From: Liolophura sinensis
Taxonomy: Eukaryota; Mollusca; Polyplacophora; Chitonida; Chitonidae
Length of the DNA: 64,000 nt
Reading direction: 5' to 3'
NCBI RefSeq assembly: GCF_032854445.1
Contig: NC_088300.1
Coordinates: 67,060,984 to 67,124,983 of the forward strand
Shown here: piece by piece, positions 5,981 to 55,551 of the stretch
How positions within the stretch are numbered: the first letter of the stretch is position 1
Layout: each line of letters starts with the position of its first letter
Position numbers and translations under genes: made by a program
Notes under the pieces: generated by a model
Databases searched by the model: none
Seen by the model: the letters and a program-made list of their open reading frames with translations, nothing else
Told to the model about the DNA's origin: nothing

Positions 5981-6265
5981 CAGCCGGTTATATTTATTTA
6001 TTTGATTGGTGTTTTACGCCGTACTCAAGAATATTTCACTTATACGACGGCGGCCAGCATTATGGTGGGAGGAAACAGGGCAGAGCCCTTGGGGAAACCC
6101 ACGACCATCCGCATGTTGCTGCCAGACCTTCCCACGTGCGGCCGGAGAGGAATCCATGAGTTGGACTTGAACTCACAGCGACCGCATTGGTGAGAGACTC
6201 CTGGGTCATTACGCTACGCTAGCGAGCTGACCGACTGAGCCACGGAGGCCTCCCAGCCCGTTATA
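5981..6265 (-). mobile_element. SINE-A, full length, with target-site duplication
   Basis: tRNA-derived SINE in minus orientation (element 5993-6253). The right end, read on the minus strand, begins GGCCTCCGTGGCTCAGTCGG, a pol III box A-like tRNA head. It continues through a B box (GAGTTCAAGTCC) and a body, ending in a TAAATAAATA-type tail at the left. It is flanked by the 12-base direct repeat CAGCCGGTTATA (5981-5992) / CAGCCCGTTATA (6254-6265), one mismatch. This copy is the reference for SINE-A here. Confidence 0.9.
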
Positions 6266-15419: not shown

Positions 15420-15712
15420 CAGAATCTTCGATTTATTTCTTTCTTTATATGATTAGTTTTTTACGCGTACTCAAAAATATTTCACTTATACGACGGCGCC
15501 CCAGCATTATGGTGGGAAGAAACAGGGCAGAGCCCGGGGGGAAACCCATGACCATCCGCAGGTTGTTGACAGACCTTCACACGTACGGCCGAGAGGAAGC
15601 CAGCATGAGCTGGACTTGAACTCACAACGACCGCATTGGTGAGGGGCTCCTGGGCCATTACGCTGCGCTAGCGCGCTAACCAACTGAGCCACGGAGGCCC
15701 CAGAATCTTCGA
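15420..15712 (-). mobile_element. SINE-A, full length, perfect 12-bp target-site duplication
   Basis: Element 15432-15700 in minus orientation with complete tRNA-like head (ending GCCACGGAGGCC on the plus strand). The direct repeat CAGAATCTTCGA is identical at 15420-15431 and 15701-15712. The interrupted sequence itself contains a tRNA-like segment (GGCGTTGGTTCAATCCCAG at about 15393), so this SINE inserted into an older SINE-like sequence. Confidence 0.93.
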
Positions 15713-16530: not shown

Positions 16531-18171
16531 AGGCTTAGCCATCAGGGATGATTTTATTTATCAGTATATTGTATATGCAGCTGTAACCATCTTCTTATAT
16601 TTTCAGAAAAAAAACTTTTGGAAAGGAGGCAGTGAACAGCTTTACTTAGCCTGCGTAACATGGAATTTAATCACAGATCATTAGGTTCTGCGCACGTCTG
16701 TTGGATCATCAGCCCTCCATCAACTACTCTAGAAACACATCTTGATAGATTACAAGCTCAAAAAGCTCTACGATACGATATGATGCACCGAGTCAGCTGT
16801 TGCACATTTTTACCGAATCCGATACTCCTTATCTTTCCAACTTCAACTCCCACGTGGTTTACGTAAGGGACGGATAACCGATGCCATGTTTTTCTCATTA
16901 AAATCTAATAACGTAAACATTCTTTACTCAGATAGCTTTTGGGACATGCTGGTTATATAATTTCTGGTATAGAGGCACGCGTAAGAAGTTATATATATGG
17001 CATAGATTTTCATATATAGTTTCTTTCAAAACGAATAGCATAGCGTCAAAACCAGAAGACATAAAAGTATTACGTTTTAGCTCCAGCGTCGTCAAATGAG
17101 AAATCTGAAAAAAGCCTGAATTAACATTTAAAACAAAATGGCATTATAGTTCTTTGTCGGTGGCCTGAAAGATTGTACCACGGGTATACTCAGGCGGTCA
17201 ACGGGACCAAAACCTTCAACATGCTTCACCACTGAGCCTACAACATGCAATAAAAGAGCTTTAATATTTGTATTCGAATTTCGAAATTTCTTGATTTCGA
17301 AATTTTAAATTATTCACGGAGTGCGATCAAATTTGATTTGCATATCATGTGTAGAATATCGACTGTCTTCCCTGATTCACTGAAGTTTTTGGAATTCCCT
17401 TTTTGTTACAAATCACCAGCTTTATTTACTTTTTATATTTCTTGCTCAGGAAATCAGTCTTTAGATTATTGGCACGCCATTTAATGAGTGCTTATACAAA
17501 CCTAAGCTAGTCTATGTAGACACATATCATCAGGACGAAATAGTTACAGAATCATGGGTTTGATTCTGACAAGAAAGTGTGGATATGTCTTCTTCGAAGA
17601 AGCTTGCCAGCTGCGTAAATTCGTTGAAAAAGCATTCTGACGGCTTTAAATCAGTTTTGAATGCTAAGATATTCGAATCCTTCTCGCTGATATATACCGG
17701 TTGCATAACTACATGGCAAAACCAGGATGCTGTAAGCTGTATACGAGGTACTGTGCTTAACCCGCTTACCATCTGCCATTAGTATTTACGAGTCAAAGGT
17801 TTGACTGCCAGGAAGCCAAACCGCAAAGAGCTGGAACAAATCATTATGGAACTATTATAGGCAACCCTATTATTAGGGTAAGTTATACTATAAATAGTTA
17901 AAGGCTGCAGTGCCCGCTATGACGCTCAGCAAATGGCGTCGACATCACGTAAAGGTGCCTTGCGCCAGAATGTCAGAGTTGCATAACATCATGACGCTTT
18001 TCACTTTGCTGAAGTCTGATCCAACGGGAATTCGCAATCGCTCAAATGCATTTATGCAAGCTTAACCGTTCAACCCATCTGATAAATATTTTATTTAAAA
18101 ATGCCATTTTCGCGATATTACAGTACTATATCACAGATATATCCGTAGAATTATCCCTCGAAACATTCCCC
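16531..18171. other. non-coding stretch between repeats and the TIR gene
   Basis: No gene supported; short ORFs at 16660, 17530 and 17579 lack similarity and overlap on opposite strands. Confidence 0.5.
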
Positions 18172-18177
18172 TTTATT
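18172..18177 (-). terminator. candidate polyadenylation signal of the TIR-CaaX gene
   Basis: Minus-strand AATAAA about 115 bases after the stop codon at 18292. It is a common hexamer in AT-rich DNA, so support is positional only. Confidence 0.4.
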
Positions 18178-18291: not shown

Positions 18292-18915
18292 TCACAGGAT
18301 GCTGCAAGCTTTGGACTTTTTAGACCCGCCACTTGGCCGTCGCTTGTGGATGTGAGGTGAGTTTTCGTTCAGTTTGCCATCATCATTTGATGGTGATTGT
18401 CCTATTTCAGAGGTTTCCTTGGCAGTTTTCAGTAATGTTACTTGCTCTTCGGAAGTCCTTAACAAGGGGCTCTTTTCTTTTTCTATGCCTTCACCATCAT
18501 TCTTCTGTTTAGCAGTGTTTGTATTTTCACTCGTTTTTATGGTTTCTCTGGCTACTACTTCCGGTTCTGGGGCATTGTCATTTTCGTCCTGCACGATATT
18601 CACATCAGGCCGCTCCCCAGATTCTTCAACGGTTGTCACGGTGAGTAAGCTGCTGCGTCTGGAAGAAGATGGCTGTCTGGCACTCGTCGCTGAGCGATGC
18701 CGGCTACTGATCACGGGTTGGTCAATACTGTTGACCCCTGACCTGACTCGGCCACTCACAGACGGAGGAGCACTGGCTAGTTTCTGGTACTCAGCACTTT
18801 GCATAGCCAGTTGCATCATGATCTCTTCGTCTTTGGCCTTCTGTTGAGATGAAGACAATGCGGCCGGAGATGGGGCAGTTTTGCGGGGGCTACTAACACG
18901 CCACGAATCTTCTTT
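18292..18915 (-). CDS. TIR-CaaX gene, last exon (Ser-rich tail and CSIL box)
   Basis: Acceptor CCCGTGTCTTTGCAG, exon start 18915. It encodes KEDSWRVSSPRK, a short predicted helix (KDEEIMMQLAMQSAEYQKLA), Ser/Arg-rich and acidic stretches, then GGSKKSKACSIL and TGA. Link to exon 3 rests on strand, phase 0 match and lack of any other start; no transcript is available. If it were a separate gene it would still be a CaaX protein. Confidence 0.8.
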   Translation of the reverse strand, partial: KEDSWRVSSPRKTAPSPAALSSSQQKAKDEEIMMQLAMQSAEYQKLASAPPSVSGRVRSGVNSIDQPVISSRHRSATSARQPSSSRRSSLLTVTTVEESGERPDVNIVQDENDNAPEPEVVARETIKTSENTNTAKQKNDGEGIEKEKSPLLRTSEEQVTLLKTAKETSEIGQSPSNDDGKLNENSPHIHKRRPSGGSKKSKACSIL

Positions 18916-21900
18916 CTGCAAAGACACGGGAAAATATTGACGTTATAAAACTGTTGACATTTAATATATATCCAATCAGAATCACATTAACAAGTTTATG
19001 AAAGTAAGTTTGAACTCACAAATGTAATGACTGACTATTTAACATAGTTACTTATTTGATTCCTGTTTTACGCATTTACTCACTTTCATGACTATGTCCA
19101 TAATATATTAACGCTGACGTATATTAGCAATGCATGTGTGAAAAGTAGACATGAGACAAAATTGTCACTCGATAATTGTCCGCGATAGAATGTCTGTACA
19201 AATCGAAAAATTTTTTCCCGCTGTATTAGAATGGGCTTCTGGAACACTAAGCTGAAGCGCGTTAACAAATATTGTTTTCAGTTTACATTTAACTAATTTG
19301 TCACAAAATAGCCAGGTGTGTCCGTGATACAGTGATGTTTAGTACATGACAAGGACAATCTTGCCTTGCGCTGCAGTATTTACAAAGCAATTCATTTGCA
19401 GACAAATTAGCAAAGAAAACCAAACGCAAGCAGTTTGAGCAATGACAACAACATACATTGTAAAAGCAAATGGCTGCACAATGTTGGCACCCGTTGTGAA
19501 CGCATCCTGACAAAGACGCTGCTGGCTAATCGAAGCTGAACACACATCATCCAAAATAAAGACCCTGTTTATTTTGTCGGAATGTGCAGAAGGTATAGGT
19601 GTGCGTTTTCGCGTTAAGTGGTGATCACGTACATCAAGATGTTTCTGTAGGAGCGTTCTTCATGTGATTAAGATGAAGAAGGTATTTTCGTGTCGGAACT
19701 CGTTGGTGTGTTCACATCTGTGAGTTCTGCTTATCAGTGTACCTATAATTGACTCTAAAAGAGGTATACCGTGAGGCGGTTCGTAGGAAATCTGGTGCAA
19801 GGATAAAAAGCTGTACAAACAGGCCTACACACCGAGCTGGGAGAATGTCCATGGAAAAGTGCTTATCGTAAGATGATTATAGACCTGAGAGAAAGCTGAG
19901 ATGTATGAAAGACTATCGGCTCTTATTGAGAAAACATGAGGATTGTATGAATAACTGTACACCATTCAGCACCACCTTCACTATTGTTCCGTAGGTCTGT
20001 GTAAAATGGCTCTAGAAAACCCAATATTTGCTTTCAAATTGTCTGTTTCCCCCTTTTTTGTTTGTTTTTTTAGATTGCATTCAGTTTAGCGTCACTTTCA
20101 ACACGACTTCGATCGCATTCCTACGGCGTGTCCTCATAGGATGACGGTTCAAATGGCGTAACTTCTCATACCGTACCGAAGACGCCGGACATGATGCTTC
20201 GTTCAGCCACAGTTTACTGATCCCGGGACCACCAATGCTTTACCTACATAGTAACATCCCGTAATTAATGTATTGTGCCAAGAGAAGAGATACCTTAGAT
20301 GTTTGCCGACATCATATTCTCTTCAGACTCGACCCTTTCTTGGCTTGAATATTTGGCGCAGTATATACATTCGTGGGCTAATCCAATGGCCAAATTACAC
20401 GAAGTCATGGGCAAAACTGTAATATTTGCTTGGTTTATTTTGGAAATAAAGTTCGCCTATACAGTGTCGATAATCAGAGAGATGTTAAGTTTTCTTATGC
20501 ATAAAACAGGATTTTCCTGCTGGACTACGCATTTCCGAGGCATGGGACTAAGCATCCCCGAGGTACTGAATTAAACATCCCCACTGTCCCGAGCCATTAT
20601 TTTCTTGTGATTGTTTACTAAATTAGACGACGACAGAACACAATGAGTAATTCTACCCCAGAGACGTCTAATAAATTGCAGTTAAAATCACTGCATTTTT
20701 TTTACCTAATTCTGCTTAAACCAAGGAGCTATAGAGGAATGCGAAGGTTACTACTTAGGGAGCACATACATAAACAGTTAAGATGTAACCCTAAGTGAGG
20801 TAGATTGTCAAGATGACGTATTTCATGGGTTACGAGTGACCATATGTCCACAATTACGCAGTCGTCACTGCTCTTGTTTTACTCTCTACGCTATAGTGGA
20901 ATGCCGTGTCAATGAGATCAAGGAATGCAGAGTATGGGGTATATCACCAATCACTGGAATATTGTAGAGGTCAGTATGGTTAAGGAATAAAGAGCACTAC
21001 GAAAAGCATCAACCATTGGAATGTCGTCAAGGTTAATTAGATCCAGGAATAAAAACTACTGCGTAAAGCACCAAAAAAATTGCAACACTATACGTTAAAC
21101 GAGTACTACGAGAAGCACAAATCAATGGAATGTCGTAGAGATCAAGATGGTCAAGGAATAAAGAATATCGCGTAAAGCATTAATCATTAAAATGTCGTAC
21201 AGGTCAATTAGGTCAAGGAATAACGAGTACAGCCTAAAACATCAATCACCGGAATGTCGCAGAGATCAATTAGATCAAGGAATAAAGACTGCTGCATATA
21301 GAACCAATGAAAGTTTTACAAATACAGTGTAGCACCATGTGTTAAACGTAACCTCCATGGCGGTGTATCGTAGCACTATAGTATGTGCTATGACCGTTAC
21401 ATCTGACAGGGAACGCCCTGTTTGTGAAAACGAGTCCCAGAACTCTTACTAGATTGTCTTAGGAATGAAGACACCACTCTCAGGCAACTTCTCGCTATTT
21501 CCCTTTTGGCATTCCAGGGCCACCTGCAGAGCATTGTTATATACAACAGGCTTAGGCCGTCAGTGTTCAAAAACAGTCACCTCATCGTCTGTAATACCCA
21601 GGGCTGTGTTTAGACGAGGCACTAATCGGTGCCCGCTGTTCTGCTCATCCGTCAGGTCCAGCATGAGGGAAGTGAGATTCCAGAAGAAGTCCCGGTGGAT
21701 GAAGAGGTTATCTCCCGGCGGCCAGGAGACCGAATCCAGCACTACTGGCACCAACGGCTTCTCTGTACAACAAACAAATGGGAAATTAGCCTTAAACGTC
21801 AAGTCTGCTAACACACCTATACATCATATACTCTCTGAAGGTCTACATAGTTGCCCTTGTAGAGGTTAGTACATATAAGTTCATCAATACAATGTATTAT

Positions 21901-23917
21901 TGTGTTATATATTCTATTCCATGGTTAAAGCCATTGATTTTAGCTTCGACAAATGTTGTGTAAGTCGCTCTGTCATGCAGTCGGTCTATCATCAGTGGGT
22001 CTGTTGGTCGGTCTGTCATTGCTGGGTCTGTTGGTCGGTCTGTCATCGCTGGGACTGTTGGTCGGTCTGTCATCTCTGGGTCTGTTGGTCGGTCTGTCAT
22101 CAGTGGGTCTTTTGGTCGTTAAAACTACTGGCATACATGTTTTAATAGCAGCCATTTACAAAACGAAGAAGTTTGAGTGCAAGACTACATCGGTGTTTTG
22201 CAGAATGTTGTAGTTATTGCAAATTTGAGCATGTGTTTAAATGATGCCTAGCGCACCAAAAGTCCAGGATTATATTTCGTTTAAGTGGAATGATTAGATG
22301 TCTCTGCCATAATTTTTTATTATGACAAGATGACACATTGTCACACTAACAATTCACTTCAGACATTAAAAATGTGACACGTATATTATCGCAACATTCG
22401 ACAAATTTCAGTATTGCTTCCTTGTCACAGTAACATTTTGTCTTTATTACTAAGATGCTGATATTTTATTTATTTACTGCATTAGTCTTTTACGCCGTAC
22501 TGTGCATGTAGATTGTATTACCACAGGAGGAAAATATTTATTTATTTATTTGATTGGTGTTTTTACCCCATTCTCAAGAATATTTCAATTATACGACCCC
22601 GACCAGCCTTATGGCAATTGGAGGAAACCCGGTAGAGCCCGACGGGGAAACCCGCGACCGTCTGCCAGGTTGCTGACAGACTTTCTCACTTACGGCCGAA
22701 GAGGTTTAGCCGGCATGAGCTGGACTTGAACTCACAGCTACTACATTGGTGAGAGGCCCCAGGAGGAAAGTACAAGTATACACATAATATACGAATATAT
22801 ACAAGTATATACGCAATTTTACAATAACTGTGTATACTTAATATGATATATTTAACATTTTATCACAAATACTGTATGAATTTTATATGATTTTATACAA
22901 CCATAAGTTTAAATTGTAGAAACATACACAGCTCCATCTTGACTCATGGCTTCAGCAAAATTGGGTAAAAATAATACGGTGATGCTAACTGCCATGTATT
23001 AGGCGTCAGTTATCTATAATAATATTTTAACTTTTAGATTCCAGATCAATAACATCCAAAATTAATTCTTAAAGTATTATTACATTTTATTTCTAAGAAA
23101 ATATGATAGATGAACCACTCAATCACCTGCATCGTTTCAATATTTCTGTTCTACTGATTTAAAATTATTTATTATTATGCAAGAATTTTTTACTTTCAAG
23201 CAATATTTTTCCTGAAATTTAATCACAGGGCACGGTAGAATATATTATTATGATGATATGCCTGGGATAGGTCAACTGTACATATATACCTTGCCAGTGA
23301 ATCATCAGGAACTCGTTGTGACAAGCATCGTCCGTGCTGTAATGGGCAGACAGACAGACAACAAAGGCGCATGCTCTGTCTAAGTGTGACGTATCCATTT
23401 CCTCCTTATGGCTGCTATTTGTGACGTCAAAGTGACCCGCCCTTAACCTGACACAGACAAAACCAATAATGCCTTAGTGCAAAGCATAGACATGAAAATG
23501 GTGAAATGAATTGCTATACCTGAAAATCATTTATAATTATTCCATTTTATCAATATTTGCTTTTAAAATATTGAAGCGCCAAAAAGTCAGAAGAAGGCCT
23601 TCGACAGTTACTGTGCTGTGTCCTGAGTAAACCGTGTTATTTGTTGTGATGTATTTTTTTACTTTCCGAAAACTGACAAAGTTTCCTCTCCTTGATCCGG
23701 GATTTGAACACACAACCTCACTGGTGAGGTACAACAAAGGCTGGTAAATGGCATCACCACCTGCAATCGATTTAACCGAACAAGACTAAACAAATGGTAT
23801 TTATAATTAATAATTCTATATACAAGAATATAATATCGAAACTTACTCTTGTAGGAGTCTATTTACTTTAGTAGCATCCTTCTTCGAGTGGCTAACGAAC
23901 ACAACTTTTTTGTCCAT
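18292..23917 (-). CDS. TIR-domain protein with C-terminal CaaX box (4 exons, 344 aa)
   Basis: Assembled from exons 23847-23917, 23290-23447, 21581-21762 and 18292-18915, all in phase. Residues about 4-137 form a TIR domain: strand A VVFVSHSKKD, strand C FVVCLSAHYS, then ACHNE, strand D KPLVPVVLD and SWPPGDN. Glu69 in CHNE aligns with the catalytic Glu of SARM1 (HKE) and other NAD-cleaving TIRs, so NAD hydrolase activity is possible. The region between strands A and C is shorter than usual. The 207-residue tail is Ser/Thr-rich with basic patches (SSRRSSLLT) and ends KKSKACSIL. Cys341 with a terminal Leu fits type I geranylgeranylation, and KKSK is a polybasic membrane-targeting signal. No signal peptide or membrane helix is present. 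Inference: a cytosolic TIR effector or adaptor anchored to an inner membrane face. An additional small exon in the last intron cannot be excluded. Confidence 0.83.
18916..20658 (-). other. part of TIR-CaaX gene intron 3
   Basis: Intronic sequence with no recognised exon. A degenerate stretch near 20120-20250 contains CCGGACATGATGC and GTTTACTGATCCCGGGACCA, probably old SINE debris. Confidence 0.6.
20659..20896 (+). repeat. dispersed repeat, blocks Q and P, copy in TIR intron
   Basis: Block Q (GTCTAATAAATTGCAGTTAA then ATCACTGCATTTTT) at 20659-20716 and block P (GTGACCATATGTCCACAATT then CTGCTC-TTGTTTTACTC) at 20835-20896. The same order and similar spacing occur at 24543-24838. Single blocks occur at 14038 (Q) and 4154 (P). 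No terminal inverted repeats or coding potential found; family unknown. Confidence 0.6.
20898..21308 (+). repeat. 62-bp tandem repeat array in TIR intron
   Basis: Units start with GGAATGTCGTAGAGATCA-like sequence at 20898, 20956, 21018, 21127, 21189 and 21251. Each contains TCAAGGAATAAAGA and ends CATCAATCAT-like. Most spacings are 62 bases; one unit carries a 47-base extra part. Confidence 0.85.
21581..21762 (-). CDS. TIR-CaaX gene, exon 3 (TIR C-terminal half)
   Basis: Acceptor TTGTTTGTTGTACAG and donor GATGAG followed by GTGACT. It encodes KPLVPVVLDSVSWPP and the helical end of the domain (LVPRLNTALGITDDE). Phase 1 in, phase 0 out. The overlapping plus-strand ORF at 21465-21869 is its shadow. 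Confidence 0.88.
21980..22120 (+). repeat. 27-bp tandem repeat in TIR intron
   Basis: Four full units at 21997, 22024, 22051 and 22078 plus partial ends, each GGGTCTGTTGGTCGGTCTGT then CATNNCT. The period is a multiple of three, so several frames stay open and give spurious ORFs on both strands. Confidence 0.92.
22463..22501 (-). mobile_element. SINE-A tail fragment
   Basis: Contains TTTATTTATT, then GTCTTTTACGCCGTACT, matching the SINE-A 3' end. The rest of this copy is not adjacent. Confidence 0.6.
22524..22769 (-). mobile_element. SINE-A, truncated in the head, with target-site duplication
   Basis: Element 22534-22759. It keeps tail, body and B box (read on plus as GGACTTGAACTC) but stops at GTGAGAGGCC, lacking the box A part. 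The 10-base direct repeat CAGGAGGAAA occurs at 22524-22533 and 22760-22769. Confidence 0.88.
23290..23447 (-). CDS. TIR-CaaX gene, exon 2 (TIR core with CHNE motif)
   Basis: Acceptor TTTGTCTGTGTCAG and donor CTGGCAAG followed by GTATAT. It encodes LRAGHFDV through ACAFVVCLSAHYSTDDACHN, then EFLMIHWQ. Phase 2 in and phase 1 out, matching both neighbours. This exon carries the candidate catalytic Glu69. Confidence 0.88.
23560..23745 (-). repeat. possible SINE remnant in TIR intron 1
   Basis: The minus strand contains a B-box-like GTGTTCAAATCCCGGATCAA at about 23712-23693, with a tRNA-like stem before it. No second copy in the window and no box A, so assignment is tentative. Confidence 0.35.
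23847..23917 (-). CDS. TIR-CaaX gene, exon 1 (start codon and TIR strand A)
   Basis: Encodes MDKKVVFVSHSKKDATKV through LLQ plus two bases. The donor is CAAGA followed by GTAAGTTT, close to consensus. The ATG is chosen because the TIR domain begins a few residues after it. The frame stays open about 36 bases upstream to a TGA, so a longer N-terminus from another exon is possible; an AG at the end of CCCAGTTCAG lies just upstream. Confidence 0.75.
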
Positions 23918-24059
23918 TATCAGCGCTATTGTGCTCAACTGATTACATTCATCGCCACGTCACTGAACTGGGTCGCAGCAATATGATGGTTAACTGCAAC
24001 GGGAAAAGACAATTTCCATGAGCATAAGTGTGTTTCTTGCCTGGCAGATGCATTTGGAT

Positions 24060-31730: not shown

Positions 31731-32414
31731 TCACTGGTTAAGACTGCTCGAAGTTGTATCACTCTCTGTCTCTGAGAAACTGGAACTGGTTTGTCGTCTC
31801 CGCTTTCCGCGGCGTGTCCGGTGAGGGGGTCGTATGTGGTGTGGCCGTCTGTCCATCTCCTCCATGTCAAACAGTTCCGGGGCCCCTAAAGTCTGTGTCC
31901 AGCTCTCAGCCATCCTAATCGGGGGAGGAGGTGGAGCTGGGGGAGGGGGCACCAGAATGCCTCCGTAGGAATGTGATCTGTGGGGGTCAGTATGACCCCT
32001 GGGTCTACATATCGGGATCTCATACGCAGAGATTATCTCCCTTGGCCGCTGTGACGGAACAGAGTTATGCCCCCTGCGAGGGCTTGGCGCAATCACTCGG
32101 GGAGGGTAGACCTCATTGTCAATGTACTCATAAATGGGAGGGTCATCAGTGCTACAAGGGGAGGGCGTGTCCTCTTCGGAGAGCTTCTCGTAACTCGACC
32201 GTGTGGGACTGACGTGCAAGAATATGTCCGGCGTGGATGGGCGTTGCTTTTTGTACAGTCCGTTCTCCTCCCTAGCTCCATATGGCCCGCAGGAGTATGG
32301 CCCGCCATTGGCAGCTCGCATACTGTCCTCGCTAGCATAGTGGTTATGGAGCATACCCAGACTGTCTCGGGATCGACACATAGTGCGACTCATGCGCTCT
32401 TGACATGGAGGTTG
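31731..32414 (-). CDS. membrane protein gene: last exon, proline/serine-rich tail
   Basis: Acceptor GTCTATTCCTCAG, exon start 32414, opening QPPCQERMSRTMCRSRDSLG. It ends SSSLNQ and TAA. GC content is clearly higher than in the flanks. Plus-strand ORFs at 31931 and 32067 are antisense shadows. Confidence 0.88.
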   Translation of the reverse strand, partial: QPPCQERMSRTMCRSRDSLGMLHNHYASEDSMRAANGGPYSCGPYGAREENGLYKKQRPSTPDIFLHVSPTRSSYEKLSEEDTPSPCSTDDPPIYEYIDNEVYPPRVIAPSPRRGHNSVPSQRPREIISAYEIPICRPRGHTDPHRSHSYGGILVPPPPAPPPPPIRMAESWTQTLGAPELFDMEEMDRRPHHIRPPHRTRRGKRRRQTSSSFSETESDTTSSSLNQ

Positions 32415-35400
32415 CTGAGGAATAGACAAGGAAACAATGGGATTAGATTTCAATCAGTCAATCATAGTCATTCAGTCAAAAACAGTATGGTTTGAAATAA
32501 CATTTATTTCTTGCCATAATTAAGTCATGTCTACTTATGGCATTCAAAAACATTTTATTTTAGTTTCTGAGGAGATAGATGTATTTATTGAGTAAAATTC
32601 CTTATATTTTTGCCTTTTTACTACCGTGATCATCTTTACAGTTGAAAAATAAATTTCATAGGCTTCCTTGGAGTCATAATATAAGCATGTCTCATTCTAA
32701 AATGGCTTTCAATAATGTAACAGCTAGACAAACTACCAAATCCCATTTGGGTTTATAACAGACTGTAAAAGTACTAATTGGGGCTAAATTTTCCCCATGA
32801 TTAATAATTACTCATTTTGTGTAATCCTACGATCTAAAATAGGCGTTTTTGAGATTTTTCTAGAAGGTAGGATAACATCATACTGGAAACAGAAAATGTA
32901 AATTTTTGGGGTTTAATTGCCTCCAAAAAGCACTTTTGGTATGAATTTTTCGTGAAAATACATTAGCTGGGTACATTAACGAAACCACCAGTCACACCTG
33001 TTCCCACCTGAGCATTTTTTTCATGCTCCTAAAAATGCACTTTTCACATGAATTTTTATGGAAAGTACATTAGCTATGTACATTGACGAAAACATCCTCA
33101 TCACACCTGTTCCCACTTGGGCAATTTCTCCAGTTTTTTTGGACTCACCTGTAATTTAGTTTCTTGTTCCACCTGCTCGCTGTAGAGTTTGTTAGACGTG
33201 GCATTAAGAGCTGTCTGGTGAGTAGGACTGCCCGTTACGCTATAGATCTCGGGCTGTTTTCTGAAACAAGATCACATAGATATATAGAAATATGAGAAGA
33301 CAACACCAGGTTACTTACCATCAGGAAACAGTAAGTACACCTGGGTACCTGTTCATTTATTAAGAATAAGCAGCCTGAATGTTTTCCAGAATGGTTACCA
33401 TGGTAATGAGTCTCCAAAAATTATAAAAGAAAGTCAAAAAATAAATTATAAAAGATAAAAGTACACATTAAAAATCTACTTATTATTTTATTCACATCAG
33501 AACTTTAAAAGAATTATGATGCTCTCATGTGATAAAACTGATGCCAATAACATTTTAGTTTCCAACCAAAAACTGTTCCGGAATGGATACTACAGAGCTA
33601 ATTCAAACATTTTTTTCTGCTATGTGTTAACATTTTATATCGACATACATGTTACAGACAATTTATGTATCAGTTGAATCTAGAAATGTATTGCACCATA
33701 TAAGTATATAGATATATATATATGCATGTATAATACCCAAGCAAAGCTTCAGTGTCTCTGTCATGCATCATAGGCATATACAGGCATATATAGGCACAGA
33801 GTAGAAGTCCCGCCATTACTATGCCAGGGTAGTTGACTACTCGCACAGGTTTACGATTCAAGATACGATCATCATACATTTAACTTAATTTTGTACCATA
33901 ACTTAACTTGGCTTGCTGACATCGTACTTAGTATATGGCTACAGCACTAAGTTTTTGCCTATACTGAAAGCCCACTTCCACAGAAAAGCAGATTTGGCGC
34001 AAACCAATAGCTAAACAAATTCAAATTTTCAACTTAGCAAATGTAAATGTAATCAATTAAACCTTTTGCAATTTTACCAACTGTTACAATAAATCTGTTA
34101 CTTTTTCCTAAGCAGATTTTGCACAATCCAACTGTTTGAGAAATTTGACATCAATATTTGCAAGAGTCCTAAATTACATCATGTGCTATTATTACAGCTT
34201 ACATAATAAACAAATATACCTGTATTACTATAAGACCAATATTGGTAAGGGTATTACCAGTACTATGATATATAATCATGTTCACAAACCAACCAATTTA
34301 TTATAGTATATATATGATCATATTCATAAAATTAAAATATGACTGTTAATAATACTTGTAATCATTACGACAAACCAAGAAATGTTTATAACACTTGTGT
34401 TCAGGAACAGAGTTATGTTTATAATACTTGTGTTGACAAACTAACTTATGCCATACAAAATATCTTGTTAACATCATCGCTATACATGTATTTAAAAAAA
34501 AAAAGTTGCTGTAATAATCAGAGCAAAGGTAATATGTAATGCATAAAGAACATATAGCAAAGAGCTCCAGTATTTATACTAGTCCTTTTTTTTTACATTG
34601 CTATTCTGATAATGATGACACTTTCTCTCATATTACTGCTCAGATTCTGTTTTTCTCATTGCGTAATGGAATATTCATTACCATATTACTCTAACGTTTC
34701 GTACACCCCGATTTCATGTGATTAAAATCATTCTGGGACTCACCAATTCTGTTCCATTATGCTTATCAGGATAGGCTTTCTTATTAAAAATTCATGTTGC
34801 GTTTAAATTGGATAACACTTAAACAATCACAGTGGCAGAGGACAATCATTCACATTTCAGCACAAATTGATTGAAAAATAACATTAGACATGTATTATGA
34901 ATACGCATTCCCTATCTCCAGAGGCACTTGATGCAAGCTAACAAAACTAATTAAGGCATACTTTTCCATGCAAAGCATGCTCAACTATCAAGACTTCAAT
35001 TTATAAAGAACAAACAATGTGTATATAAAAAAATATACAAGGCGCAGAAATTTATGAGCAGTGCGATATATGTACAGGTACCATAAAGCAAGGGATGACC
35101 TTTCCTCATTATCTATGTAGGCCTATAGCTGATTTATATGGTGAAAGGCAAGATGTTTGGAAGGGAGCATTCTTATCTGAAATACTGTGTTTCTGAGAGG
35201 ATTGGGTTTCTATTTTTAATGTAGACATACTGTGCTTTGAAACAATCTTATAGTTTTTCGTTTTTCTCAAAAAAAATTTGATGCAAAAATCTGGTTGTTT
35301 AACCAACAATTTTCATGTAAAATGTCAGTAGTACATGAATTTATGCCATTGCTTTCCATTTAGTACTCCTGATGTTGGCATCACGAAATGCGCAAATGCA

Positions 35401-52552: not shown

Positions 52553-55246
52553 AATCAAACATAAAGCTTTACTCATAGATTTACTTGTATCTGTATGTAA
52601 CAGATATAACCTTTGAAGTACAAAAAAAGATAAGGTTTCATAACTGACAAAGGCGGAATACAATAATAGATGAATGTGCCAGTTATAGATCTTATCTCAC
52701 AAGCTATTAGGAAAATGTAATATGAGAACTTCTTAGATTTATCAATTCATCTTAATTCTCCTTTTATATACAATGGACAATTATGTAATCTAAGTAAGAA
52801 GCAATTTATGTAAAACTACAATAGCAGACACCATTCATTCCAAATAAACCGCTGACAAAGGCTTAAACTTTGAAGTATTATATAACCAAATGAGCATTAA
52901 TGTAGTCACGGGGGTGCATTTTTGATTATAAATTCATAAATACACACGTCATAACATTGCATGAAAATAACAATAACTGATTTCCATATATCAACCATGC
53001 AATGTACTGCATCAGGCCTATAATCAATCAAGAGAGCGGCTTTGTTTTTATATGTCATTCATAAGGCCAAACATTTGTTCATTTTAGAATAATCGTAGAG
53101 AGAATGAGCCAAGATCCTGTTTCCTGTAATTATTGAATTGACTCGATTCACAAGAGGCCCTTTGTGTCTAACTGTTACATCATGGAATCCATTATATGCC
53201 ATTAGCAAAGAGTGGGGTGTAAACAGTGCTGGAAGTCTGTGCCAGGCAGGGTCTGTAACGGTGGTAAGGTGGAGAATGCCTACATCATTTATACATACAG
53301 CTATTATTACATCTAGACACAAGGTCAAGGCTGACTTCCATCTGAGGTTACATGTATACTGACCAAGGCACGCCATTAGTGTTGCATGTACAGTATACCT
53401 TAGTTGTACCAGTACAGTATACATATCGTCATTATATATAAACAGTAAAAATCATGGTATCGGAATTGAATCAGGCCATTTATATCATTACCATGAAGTC
53501 GCTAAAAGTTCAATCAGCTAAGTGCAGGTTTTAAGTTCAAATGTTTTATGGTGCAATGCTGTATCATATAACGATGTTATGAATTTCTACATATGCAAGT
53601 TAAATCTGAAAGTTTCAGAAGAAGTATGGAATTTGGTCAACATTAATTTCAAAGTTCAAAGGTTTTATCGGATACACTTTATGGAATAGTTTTAGCCATT
53701 CTTTCATGCAAAGTTAAAAAGAAAGAAAAATGTCTTTCTTGTTCTCATAATTTCTCCTTTATAATGGTCATGCCATGAATTTTTTTTTAAACAAAGTAAA
53801 TAAATTTAGATTTATTTGCCTGAAAATGACAACATTTTAATGAACTACTGATGATGTTCATTTGGCCTCAAGGCTAAAACTATATGTTCATTTAGCCCTT
53901 CAAGATGTAGTGCATTAGAACATGGGCGTGTGCATGGGTAATGATTGACAGCTCCATGCCTGGGGCACAAAGATAATGGATCTCAAATCTGAAGGATCGA
54001 TACATTATCAGATAATGGCAAACATACATTTCTTAACAATAATTCATGACATGTTTACATAAGAATAGCTTGCTTGGTTATACTTACTCATTTTCAAAAT
54101 AAAAAATACACAAATATACTGAACGAAATATATATATATACCAAGATATTTTGGATGCCATTAGACAGGTGAATGTTCCAATAAATACATCAGATATTCT
54201 TGTGCCACTTACACTAATTGATTTCAAGTGCACATACCAGGCCAAATTTTTTGTACAAAGAAAATAAACTTTGGTGGATTTGTCCAAATGTGCATATTTA
54301 TGGTGGTGCCATTTCCCTTTGTGTATTGAGCTGGAATCTGAGCGGACAACAAATCCTTATCATGTGAAAGTGCCAAAAACAGTAAAAATGCATTAGATCA
54401 AAAGTCCATCGCTTGTTCAGTTTTATTATTGTTGAGAGACCAACATTACACTGGTAATACTCAACTCCTGTACACTTACCTCCGTATCCCTAACATAGCC
54501 TCAACAACAAATCACTTTACACATGTCAAGCAGCCACACTTGAACACAGTGCCAGTGTTGACAGGAATTGGCAAATCTCTGACAACACCGTTATCACTGA
54601 TATCATGGGCTGGGCGGGGCCACATGTGGCTGCCATATGTTAACAGCTACACCATTATTCAAGCTTTATTGGCCATTATTTATAGGGTAGATGATTGTTA
54701 TTGCCTTCTATGGTTCAGAATTTAAGAACGAGGTAATTAGGTGCCGAGTGTTTCCATTATGTTCATGTAAGGCATTGGAGTGGTTTTGCTTTTAGGAGAG
54801 GTCCTGGTAATAAAAGGAGATATTCTGACCAGTTTTATCCTGGAAAATGTTAACAGCTGAGGTTTGTGACATTTTATAGAACTGCAGCTTTTAACCCTGG
54901 TCACAAAGGCATAAAAGACCATTAAACCTTTTTCTGGTGTATGCAGGCATTGTTTGTCTGGTGGATTGGTTTCAAACTTCACAAATTTCACTTATCGGTG
55001 GAAAAGTTTGTCAGTTATTTGCTGATGATTGATAGTTTTCTCCACGTACTTCAGGTTTCCTCCACTTATAAAACCAATTGCCTACATGTACAAGATAACA
55101 TGTGCAAATTCATAACAGTTGTGACATCAGGCTGAAAGAGGATGTCATCTTGCACCTAGGCACCTTGGAATGGAATGACTCATACTGACAGGTAGGGCGT
55201 CAAAAATCTGACCCACAGACATTAATTCATTGCAGACAAACATTAA
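52553..55246. other. non-coding stretch
   Basis: Unique sequence. The region 53100-53400 is less AT-rich and open in frames on both strands (53059-53424 and 53138-53362) but lacks splice-site pairs or family similarity. Confidence 0.45.
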
Positions 55247-55551
55247 GGACAAAACACCAGTACCACACATACATCCAGGACACAACACCAGTACCACATA
55301 TACATCCAGGACACAACATCAGTACCACATAGACATCCAGGACACAACACCAGTACCACGTATACATCCAGGACACAACACCAGTACCACATATACATCC
55401 AGGACACAACACAGTACCACATATACATCCAGGACACAACACCAGTACCATATATACATCCTTGACGCAACACCAGTACCACATATGCATACAGGACACA
55501 ACACCAGTACCATATATACATGCTTGACGCAACACCAGTACCACATACAAT
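55247..55551 (+). repeat. 31-bp tandem repeat, about 9.5 copies
   Basis: Unit CCAGTACCACATATACATCC then AGGACACAACA. A higher-order variant with CTTGACGCAACA alternates in the last copies. One unit lacks a base pair. Because 31 is not a multiple of three and the unit has no stop, long ORFs on both strands are artefacts. Confidence 0.95.

Follow-up and report, generated by a model that had tools for sequence, protein, structure and literature searches.

A TIR gene model of the chiton Liolophura sinensis with a predicted C-terminal prenylation signal, and two CaaX-ended relatives in the same genome

Introduction

The location of a TIR protein decides its assembly partners, and the vertebrate adaptors TRAM (TICAM2) and TIRAP show two kinds of membrane anchor, a myristoyl group with a basic region for TRAM and phosphoinositide binding for TIRAP (PMC8615643). 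Membrane anchoring of TIR proteins is therefore already known, and in both adaptors the anchor is N-terminal. We describe here a candidate gene of the chiton Liolophura sinensis, P0001, on the minus strand of a 64-kb window (the whole stretch of DNA analysed, C6:67060984-67124983, on NC_088300.1). Its conceptual product resembles these adaptors in that a TIR domain would be put on membranes through a lipid, but the anchor would be a C-terminal CaaX box. The use of such a box to anchor a TIR protein is apparently the undescribed part. Judging from sequence, we consider it somewhat probable that P0001 is a geranylgeranyl-anchored TIR adaptor or regulator at the membrane.

The targeting device itself is familiar. 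Small GTPases of the Rho, Rap and Ras types, as well as G-gamma, end in a polybasic, Ser-containing tail followed by a CaaX box. The likeness of the P0001 tail to these proteins concerns the device only, and no GTPase domain was matched in P0001 (Pfam, E-value (E) up to 1).

A preliminary description of this stretch, made from its letters alone, knew of no described class of animal proteins in which a TIR domain is combined with prenylation. The open PubMed Central literature agrees, as no TIR-CaaX protein was found among the matches listed for TIR together with prenylation, CaaX or lipidation. The accessible parts of two papers contain both 'TIR domain' and 'CAAX', the latter term denoting an artificial PI3K construct and Ras, and these were set aside (PMC7188309, PMC7291029). 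In the mollusc Aplysia, five MyD88-like proteins with a TIR and a Death-like domain, three of them with an Armadillo-type fold, have been reported alongside 17 TIR-only proteins, and the accessible part of this account mentions no CaaX end; the term 'prenylated' appears a single time elsewhere in it (PMC9334734). Eukaryote-only, unstudied TIR clades are reported to occur in molluscs among others (PMC13142454).

A TIR gene model ending in a CaaX box

The gene, modelled from genomic DNA alone, runs from an ATG at 23917 to a TGA ending at 18292. Its parts are the following.

23918..23993, minus strand: probable 5' untranslated region (UTR) part of exon 1, with a strong acceptor at 23993 and in-frame stops inside
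23847..23917, minus strand: exon 1, start of the TIR domain (MDKKVVFVSHSKKDATKVNRLLQ..), ending in phase 2 at AGA/GTAAGT
23290..23447, minus strand: exon 2, centre of the TIR domain, with a shortened BB region and Glu69 within ACHNEF
21581..21762, minus strand: exon 3, end of the TIR domain (KPLVPVVLD..SWPP..), donor GAG/GTGACT
18292..18915, minus strand: exon 4, Ser-rich tail of 207 residues and stop, with terminal RRPS and KKSKACSIL (CaaX box, Cys341)
18172..18177, minus strand: AATAAA, polyadenylation-like, 115 nucleotides (nt) past the stop; a second one begins at 18095, 197 nt past the stop

The four exons join with junction phases 2, 1 and 0 into 1035 nt including the stop, which gives 344 residues. 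In-frame stops lie upstream of the ATG, and the acceptor at 23993 suggests that the 5' UTR is spliced. Splice sites were scored with weight matrices of a general metazoan consensus, not trained on the chiton genome; donors 1 and 2 score within the top 3.3% and 6.2% of the window. The first two joins are supported by the TIR_2 profile, since exons 1-3, including six read-on residues after exon 3, score 41.6 bits and exon 2 alone 15.4. The stop-to-stop frame of exon 4 (216 residues) is longer than the longest frame in each of 60 Markov-simulated windows (maximum 181), and one frame of the window exceeds it, with 240 residues. Its base-position asymmetry score ranks 8th against 317 sliding windows, 7 of the 317 reaching it, which is high and not unique. 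G+C content is 0.38, 0.49, 0.56 and 0.49 in exons 1 to 4, and 0.34, 0.36 and 0.40 in introns 1 to 3. The phases and splice scores bear out the four in-phase exons and 344 residues of the preliminary description, and the frame and translation of exon 4 its long Ser-rich tail and KKSKACSIL end.

The N-terminal TIR domain proposed there was recovered as well. TIR_2 (PF13676) matches residues 6-100 with 38.9 bits (E 1.4e-9, cut-off 28), and is the sole Pfam match for the whole of P0001 at E up to 1. The Toll/MyD88-type TIR profile, PF01582, gave no match with P0001 at E up to 1, nor with exons 1-3 at E up to 10, within the HMMER filters, and in this P0001 is unlike TRAM and TIRAP. The Gly2 myristoylation signal of the TRAM type is not in P0001 either, which begins MDKK. 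PHROGs contained no match. In PDB sequence searches P0001 matched nothing at E up to 1, and its TIR part matched two insignificant, unrelated chains when the limit was E 10. No relatives of P0001 were found in viral contigs, and none of its TIR part in prokaryote genome contigs. Two matches were too weak for use, one to the TIR-like ThsB of PADLOC (E 0.022, 12.6 bits) and one to DhaM of NCBIfam (E 0.13, 12.6 bits).

At the other end, the C terminus reads CSIL, and the linker GSKKSKA at -1 to -7 contains three Lys. GGT1, that is geranylgeranyltransferase I (GGTase-I), is reported to prefer a C-terminal Leu or Met and to act on substrates with Lys-rich flexible linkers, and P0001 agrees with this linker rule, having Leu at X and a hydrophilic, Lys-containing linker (PMC1175975). 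In humanised yeast, human GGTase-I modified CIIL, CTIL, CVIL and CVLL completely and CSIM to about one half; CSIL is absent from the main text of that work (PMC11152559).

Of 1235 window frames with at least 30 residues, 12 have a C-x-x-[LFIM] end, and 2 match the strict CaaL/F pattern (C-x-[ILVM]-[LF], x not D, E, K, R or P). The frame of P0001 alone combines the strict end with at least three Lys or Arg in the preceding eight residues. Two further motifs lie in the tail, RRSS beginning at residue 223 and RRPS at 329, the Ser of RRPS being nine residues before the Cys. Both resemble sites of protein kinase A, and a parallel may be drawn with RhoA, Rap1 and K-Ras, whose polybasic tails are phosphorylated.

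CaaX-ended relatives elsewhere in the genome

P0001 was searched against its own genome (609,464,459 bases, 632 contigs), after a CaaX frame on contig C8 had already been seen. Besides its four exons it matched three places, C7:19564457 (E 0.006), C8:55178680 (E 0.04) and C8:55210502 (E 0.9); within the 64-kb window no second copy was found. The first two matches belong to gene models which also end in a CaaX box, CSIL for P0002 and CTVL for P0003.

C7, about 19563.9-19565.5 kb from TIR to CaaX: P0002, based on modelled splicing, in locus L080 (C7:19563500-19567000)
C8:55178.5-55179.2 kb, minus strand: P0003, TIR and CaaX in a single frame, no splice needed

The P0003 frame, at C8:55178758, is the best TIR_2 match of the genome; its 224 residues comprise the TIR domain, a Pro/Ser-rich tail and the end GLSKSCTVL. 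P0002, modelled from splice sites, ends in VERVHVSKCGVCSIL, with a tetrapeptide identical to that of P0001. Its CaaX exon also holds the apparent last TIR helix, consistent with the one-frame P0003. Over the window and the other loci together, strict CaaL/F ends were found in 6 of 1548 frames of at least 60 residues, namely the last exons of P0001, P0003 and P0002 (216, 224 and 134 residues) and three frames of 72-73 residues, two of which are the same DNA. This count was made without L001 and L008, both contained in locus L009, and some other loci overlap, so that some frames were counted twice.

In global alignments with 25 rows, P0001 scored highest against P0002 (79) and P0003 (60); L054 (16) and SARM1 (-7) came next, and the remaining rows scored lower. 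L054 is a TIR frame near this group which ends in EVPS and has no CaaX box. P0002 and P0003 are thus like P0001 in their TIR_2 domain, tail and CaaX end, and are its best matches in the genome. They differ from it in a full BB loop (MGGGD), a Death frame upstream, other intron positions and shorter tails.

Three features lie upstream of the P0003 frame on the minus strand of L009 (C8:55174000-55183900): a second TIR, a frame resembling a coiled coil, and a Death domain (PF00531, 42.1 bits). Other frames there look helical-repeat-like by eye and have no Pfam match above cut-off. On C7, a Death-domain frame (PF00531, 31.4 bits) lies about 1.1 kb upstream of the TIR exon of P0002. As neighbouring frames, these would make a MyD88-like layout, and Death plus TIR is also what the Aplysia MyD88-like proteins are reported to have (PMC9334734). 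P0001, for which no Death match was found, is unlike those proteins, and the helical-repeat-like frames of C8 have no Pfam match above cut-off to set beside their Armadillo-type fold. The third matched place, C8:55210502, lies in L093 (C8:55207400-55211000, minus strand), which is 75% identical to the P0003 TIR over 111 residues, contains in-frame stops, and is probably a broken duplicate.

Three side observations concern these loci. On the minus strand of L009, the helical-repeat-like frames, the coiled coil, the Death domain, two TIR domains and the CaaX end are possibly parts of one gene. On C7, in L103 (C7:19561500-19563550), tandemly repeated DNA flanks both sides of the Death frame upstream of the TIR exons, as revealed by peptide repeat units in the frames there. 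Finally, P0002 ends in KCGVCSIL, in which another Cys stands three positions ahead of the CaaX Cys; we presume that this first Cys could carry a palmitoyl group, as happens in some Ras proteins.

The two relatives bear on whether the CaaX box belongs to the TIR protein at all. Without splicing, exon 3 reads through to a stop after six codons (VTVFEH*), and the product might be a TIR-only protein of 143 residues, or else exon 4 might be part of another transcript. The third join lies outside the TIR profile match, intron 3 is 2665 bp long, and the exon 3 donor has a C at +5, all of which would fit such a separation. However, this donor is within the top 1.2% of GT sites in the window and its acceptor within the top 0.5% of AG sites, the join is in phase and ranks best among the 7 in-frame donor/acceptor pairs in the stretches scanned, and the first AATAAA or ATTAAA past exon 3 is 1.1 kb off. 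Both intact relatives, moreover, have TIR plus CaaX, one of them without a splice between. Since both carry the box, a CaaX end separate from the TIR protein seems highly improbable. The membrane tethering by prenylation put forward in the preliminary description stands as a prediction, and the two best genomic matches of P0001 also end in a CaaX box. Together, the three gene models hint that membrane-tethered TIR proteins may form a small group, apparently not described before.

Comparison with SARM1

The TIR domain of SARM1 is like that of P0001 in its TIR_2 profile match, in a Glu at the catalytic place and in a W-P pair further on. Glu69 of P0001 aligns with Glu642 of SARM1 both in the pairwise and in the four-row alignment, within an HNE/HKE context, and the local alignment score of the two proteins was reached by 1 of 500 shuffles. 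These points, to which the unstudied eukaryote-only TIR clades with mollusc members may be added (PMC13142454), would suit a membrane-tethered enzyme that cleaves nicotinamide adenine dinucleotide (NAD) by means of Glu69.

P0001 nevertheless differs from SARM1 in having no other Pfam domain, no SS loop, a shorter and Gly-less BB region, and a prenylation signal at its end. TIR domains without the SS loop (residues 622-635 of SARM1) have been reported inactive, and the BB-loop mutants D594A and G601P of SARM1 showed lowered activity (PMC8266388). In P0001 the SS loop is missing, with 8 residues fewer than SARM1 at this place. From Gly28 to Ser57, at the end of strand C, P0001 has 30 residues versus 35 in SARM1 and 36 in P0002, the position of the BB gap differing between alignments. 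No Gly follows Gly28 in its BB region, and there is no equivalent of Gly601. P0002 and P0003, with their full BB loop, likewise have no SS-type insertion. As for the Glu, it is reported to be conserved in more than 70% of TIR domains (PMC7075850).

Given how widespread the Glu is, and with two other SARM1 features missing, the enzyme was dropped as first choice, and an NAD-cleaving P0001 appears quite improbable. An adaptor or regulator is likelier, as both the SS loop and a full Gly-bearing BB region are lacking. The preliminary description had proposed a SARM1-type Glu in an enzyme or adaptor: the Glu does occupy the place of Glu642, but the enzyme half is disfavoured by the missing SS loop and BB Gly.

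The TIR set of the genome and its trees

L. sinensis has a large TIR set. TIR_2 matches at least 117 places in the genome, many of them grouped on C4, C10, C11, C12 and C13. The window of P0001 is not among these places, since its TIR is split between exons, and 117 is thus a lower bound. A CaaX box within the TIR frame itself was found in 1 of 96 TIR_2 frames, that of P0003. Two other loci, L032 (CRIF) and L093 (CKVV), have C-x-x-x ends in which a charged residue directly follows the Cys; they were not counted, because their frames continue beyond a TIR exon or across a break. In the C3 group (L032, L046, L052 and L053), no frame passed the CaaX pattern, among the frames listed.

A first tree started from P0001, P0002, P0003 and SARM1 together with 76 of the 96 frames; the other frames were shorter than 95 residues, contained stops or came from L009. 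Thinning at 70% identity left 26 rows. A second tree used 19 of these rows, SARM1 being among the seven removed. In the first tree, the group that joins P0001 to P0002, P0003 and L054 has a support of 91/88 and includes SARM1; in the second, its support is 84/85. When P0001, P0002 and P0003 were constrained to one clade, the constraint was not rejected (approximately unbiased test, p-AU 0.22). A single origin of the CaaX end in the three TIR genes is no more than a possibility.

A model for P0001

As we picture it, P0001 would be a cytosolic TIR protein, prenylated on Cys341 within CSIL, an end of the type preferred by GGTase-I, and held on the membrane by its long, Ser-rich, partly basic tail. 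So placed, it may concentrate, bridge or compete with TIR-TIR assemblies. The basic patch, together with RRPS and its Ser close to the Cys, could act as an electrostatic switch. P0001 would stand with, or next to, two intact CaaX TIR genes that have Death frames upstream.

Several points weigh against this picture. CaaX ends may occur unmodified. The shortened BB region, usually a TIR-TIR contact, could mean lost function, and the Death domain (PF00531) gave no match in P0001 at E up to 1. On the side of the relatives, the E-values of the genome search are modest, and the tails of the three proteins hardly align save for the last residues. The CaaX exon of P0002 was chosen from all downstream frames, and since all of these were inspected the C7 case alone had some chance of being a false hit; with a looser CaaX pattern, one other downstream frame matched at this locus. 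For CaaX ends, 96 of the 117 TIR_2 frames were examined. As to the trees, the CaaX-less L054 falls among the CaaX rows in both, the bootstrap frequency of a clade of P0001, P0002 and P0003 is 0% for each tree (200 replicates), and clustering of the CaaX label is not demonstrated, because 45 and 72 of 500 label shuffles clustered equally well. Lastly, the branch of P0001 measures 2.61 and 3.07, against medians of 0.84 and 0.67, and this length makes its position unsure.

Some of the same points would equally suit a decoy or a decaying adaptor, whose TIR contact surface is lost and which would bind partners without signalling, or do nothing. The shortened BB region, the long branch and the missing Death match fit this well, and no other full copy of P0001 was found in the genome. 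On the other hand, the frame of 344 residues runs unbroken through all four exons, the splice sites are good and the CaaX end is intact, and a gene in decay would be expected to contain stops, as the copy at C8:55210502 does. We regard a decoy or decaying gene as fairly unlikely, and retain the membrane-anchored adaptor or regulator.

A wider scenario may be offered tentatively, as possible and somewhat doubtful. A MyD88-like lineage with Death and TIR domains would have gained a CaaX end, and one member would then have lost part of its BB loop along with the Death domain, becoming a stand-alone TIR scaffold with a geranylgeranyl anchor and a basic tail controlled by phosphorylation. This would be an overlooked branch of TIR signalling in animals.

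If P0001 is anchored as proposed, prenylation would be a third way to place a TIR adaptor on the membrane, after myristoylation and phosphoinositide binding, and the prenylation machinery would gain control over TIR assembly. Should the three TIR genes of this one mollusc prove to have a CaaX anchor, a lineage with a very large TIR set would be seen to use another route from that of vertebrates, and the novelty would be greater if Death-TIR-CaaX proteins were widespread in molluscs. P0001 also offers a concrete case of the divergent, unstudied eukaryotic TIR proteins flagged in a recent atlas (PMC13142454).

Other features of the locus and the window

The introns of P0001 contain the following repeats.

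22531..22770, plus strand: interspersed repeat within intron 2 (the window has 15 matching stretches, this one included)
21980..22118, no strand assigned: 27-bp tandem repeat in intron 2, 5.1 copies (tandem repeat scan)
21129..21288, no strand assigned: 62-bp tandem repeat in intron 3, 2.6 copies (tandem repeat scan)

The interspersed repeat looks SINE-like (short interspersed nuclear element). It is up to about 230 bp long, and its 15 stretches per 64 kb are 74-89% identical to the query copy (5991-6204, 15434-15653 and 22531-22770 are examples); a search of papers by its letters did not find the sequence. Scans of the window with Rfam (gathering thresholds) and for tRNA were empty, and a bacterial promoter scan was uninformative here.

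Elsewhere in the window, a frame of an ectonucleotidase-like gene lies at 1326-1727 on the minus strand (GDA1_CD39, PF01150, 75.2 bits). The longest frame of the window, the 240-residue one already mentioned, is at 31731-32453 on the minus strand; it is Pro- and Ser-rich and has no Pfam match above cut-off. A 31-bp tandem repeat of 9.8 copies occupies 55246-55547.

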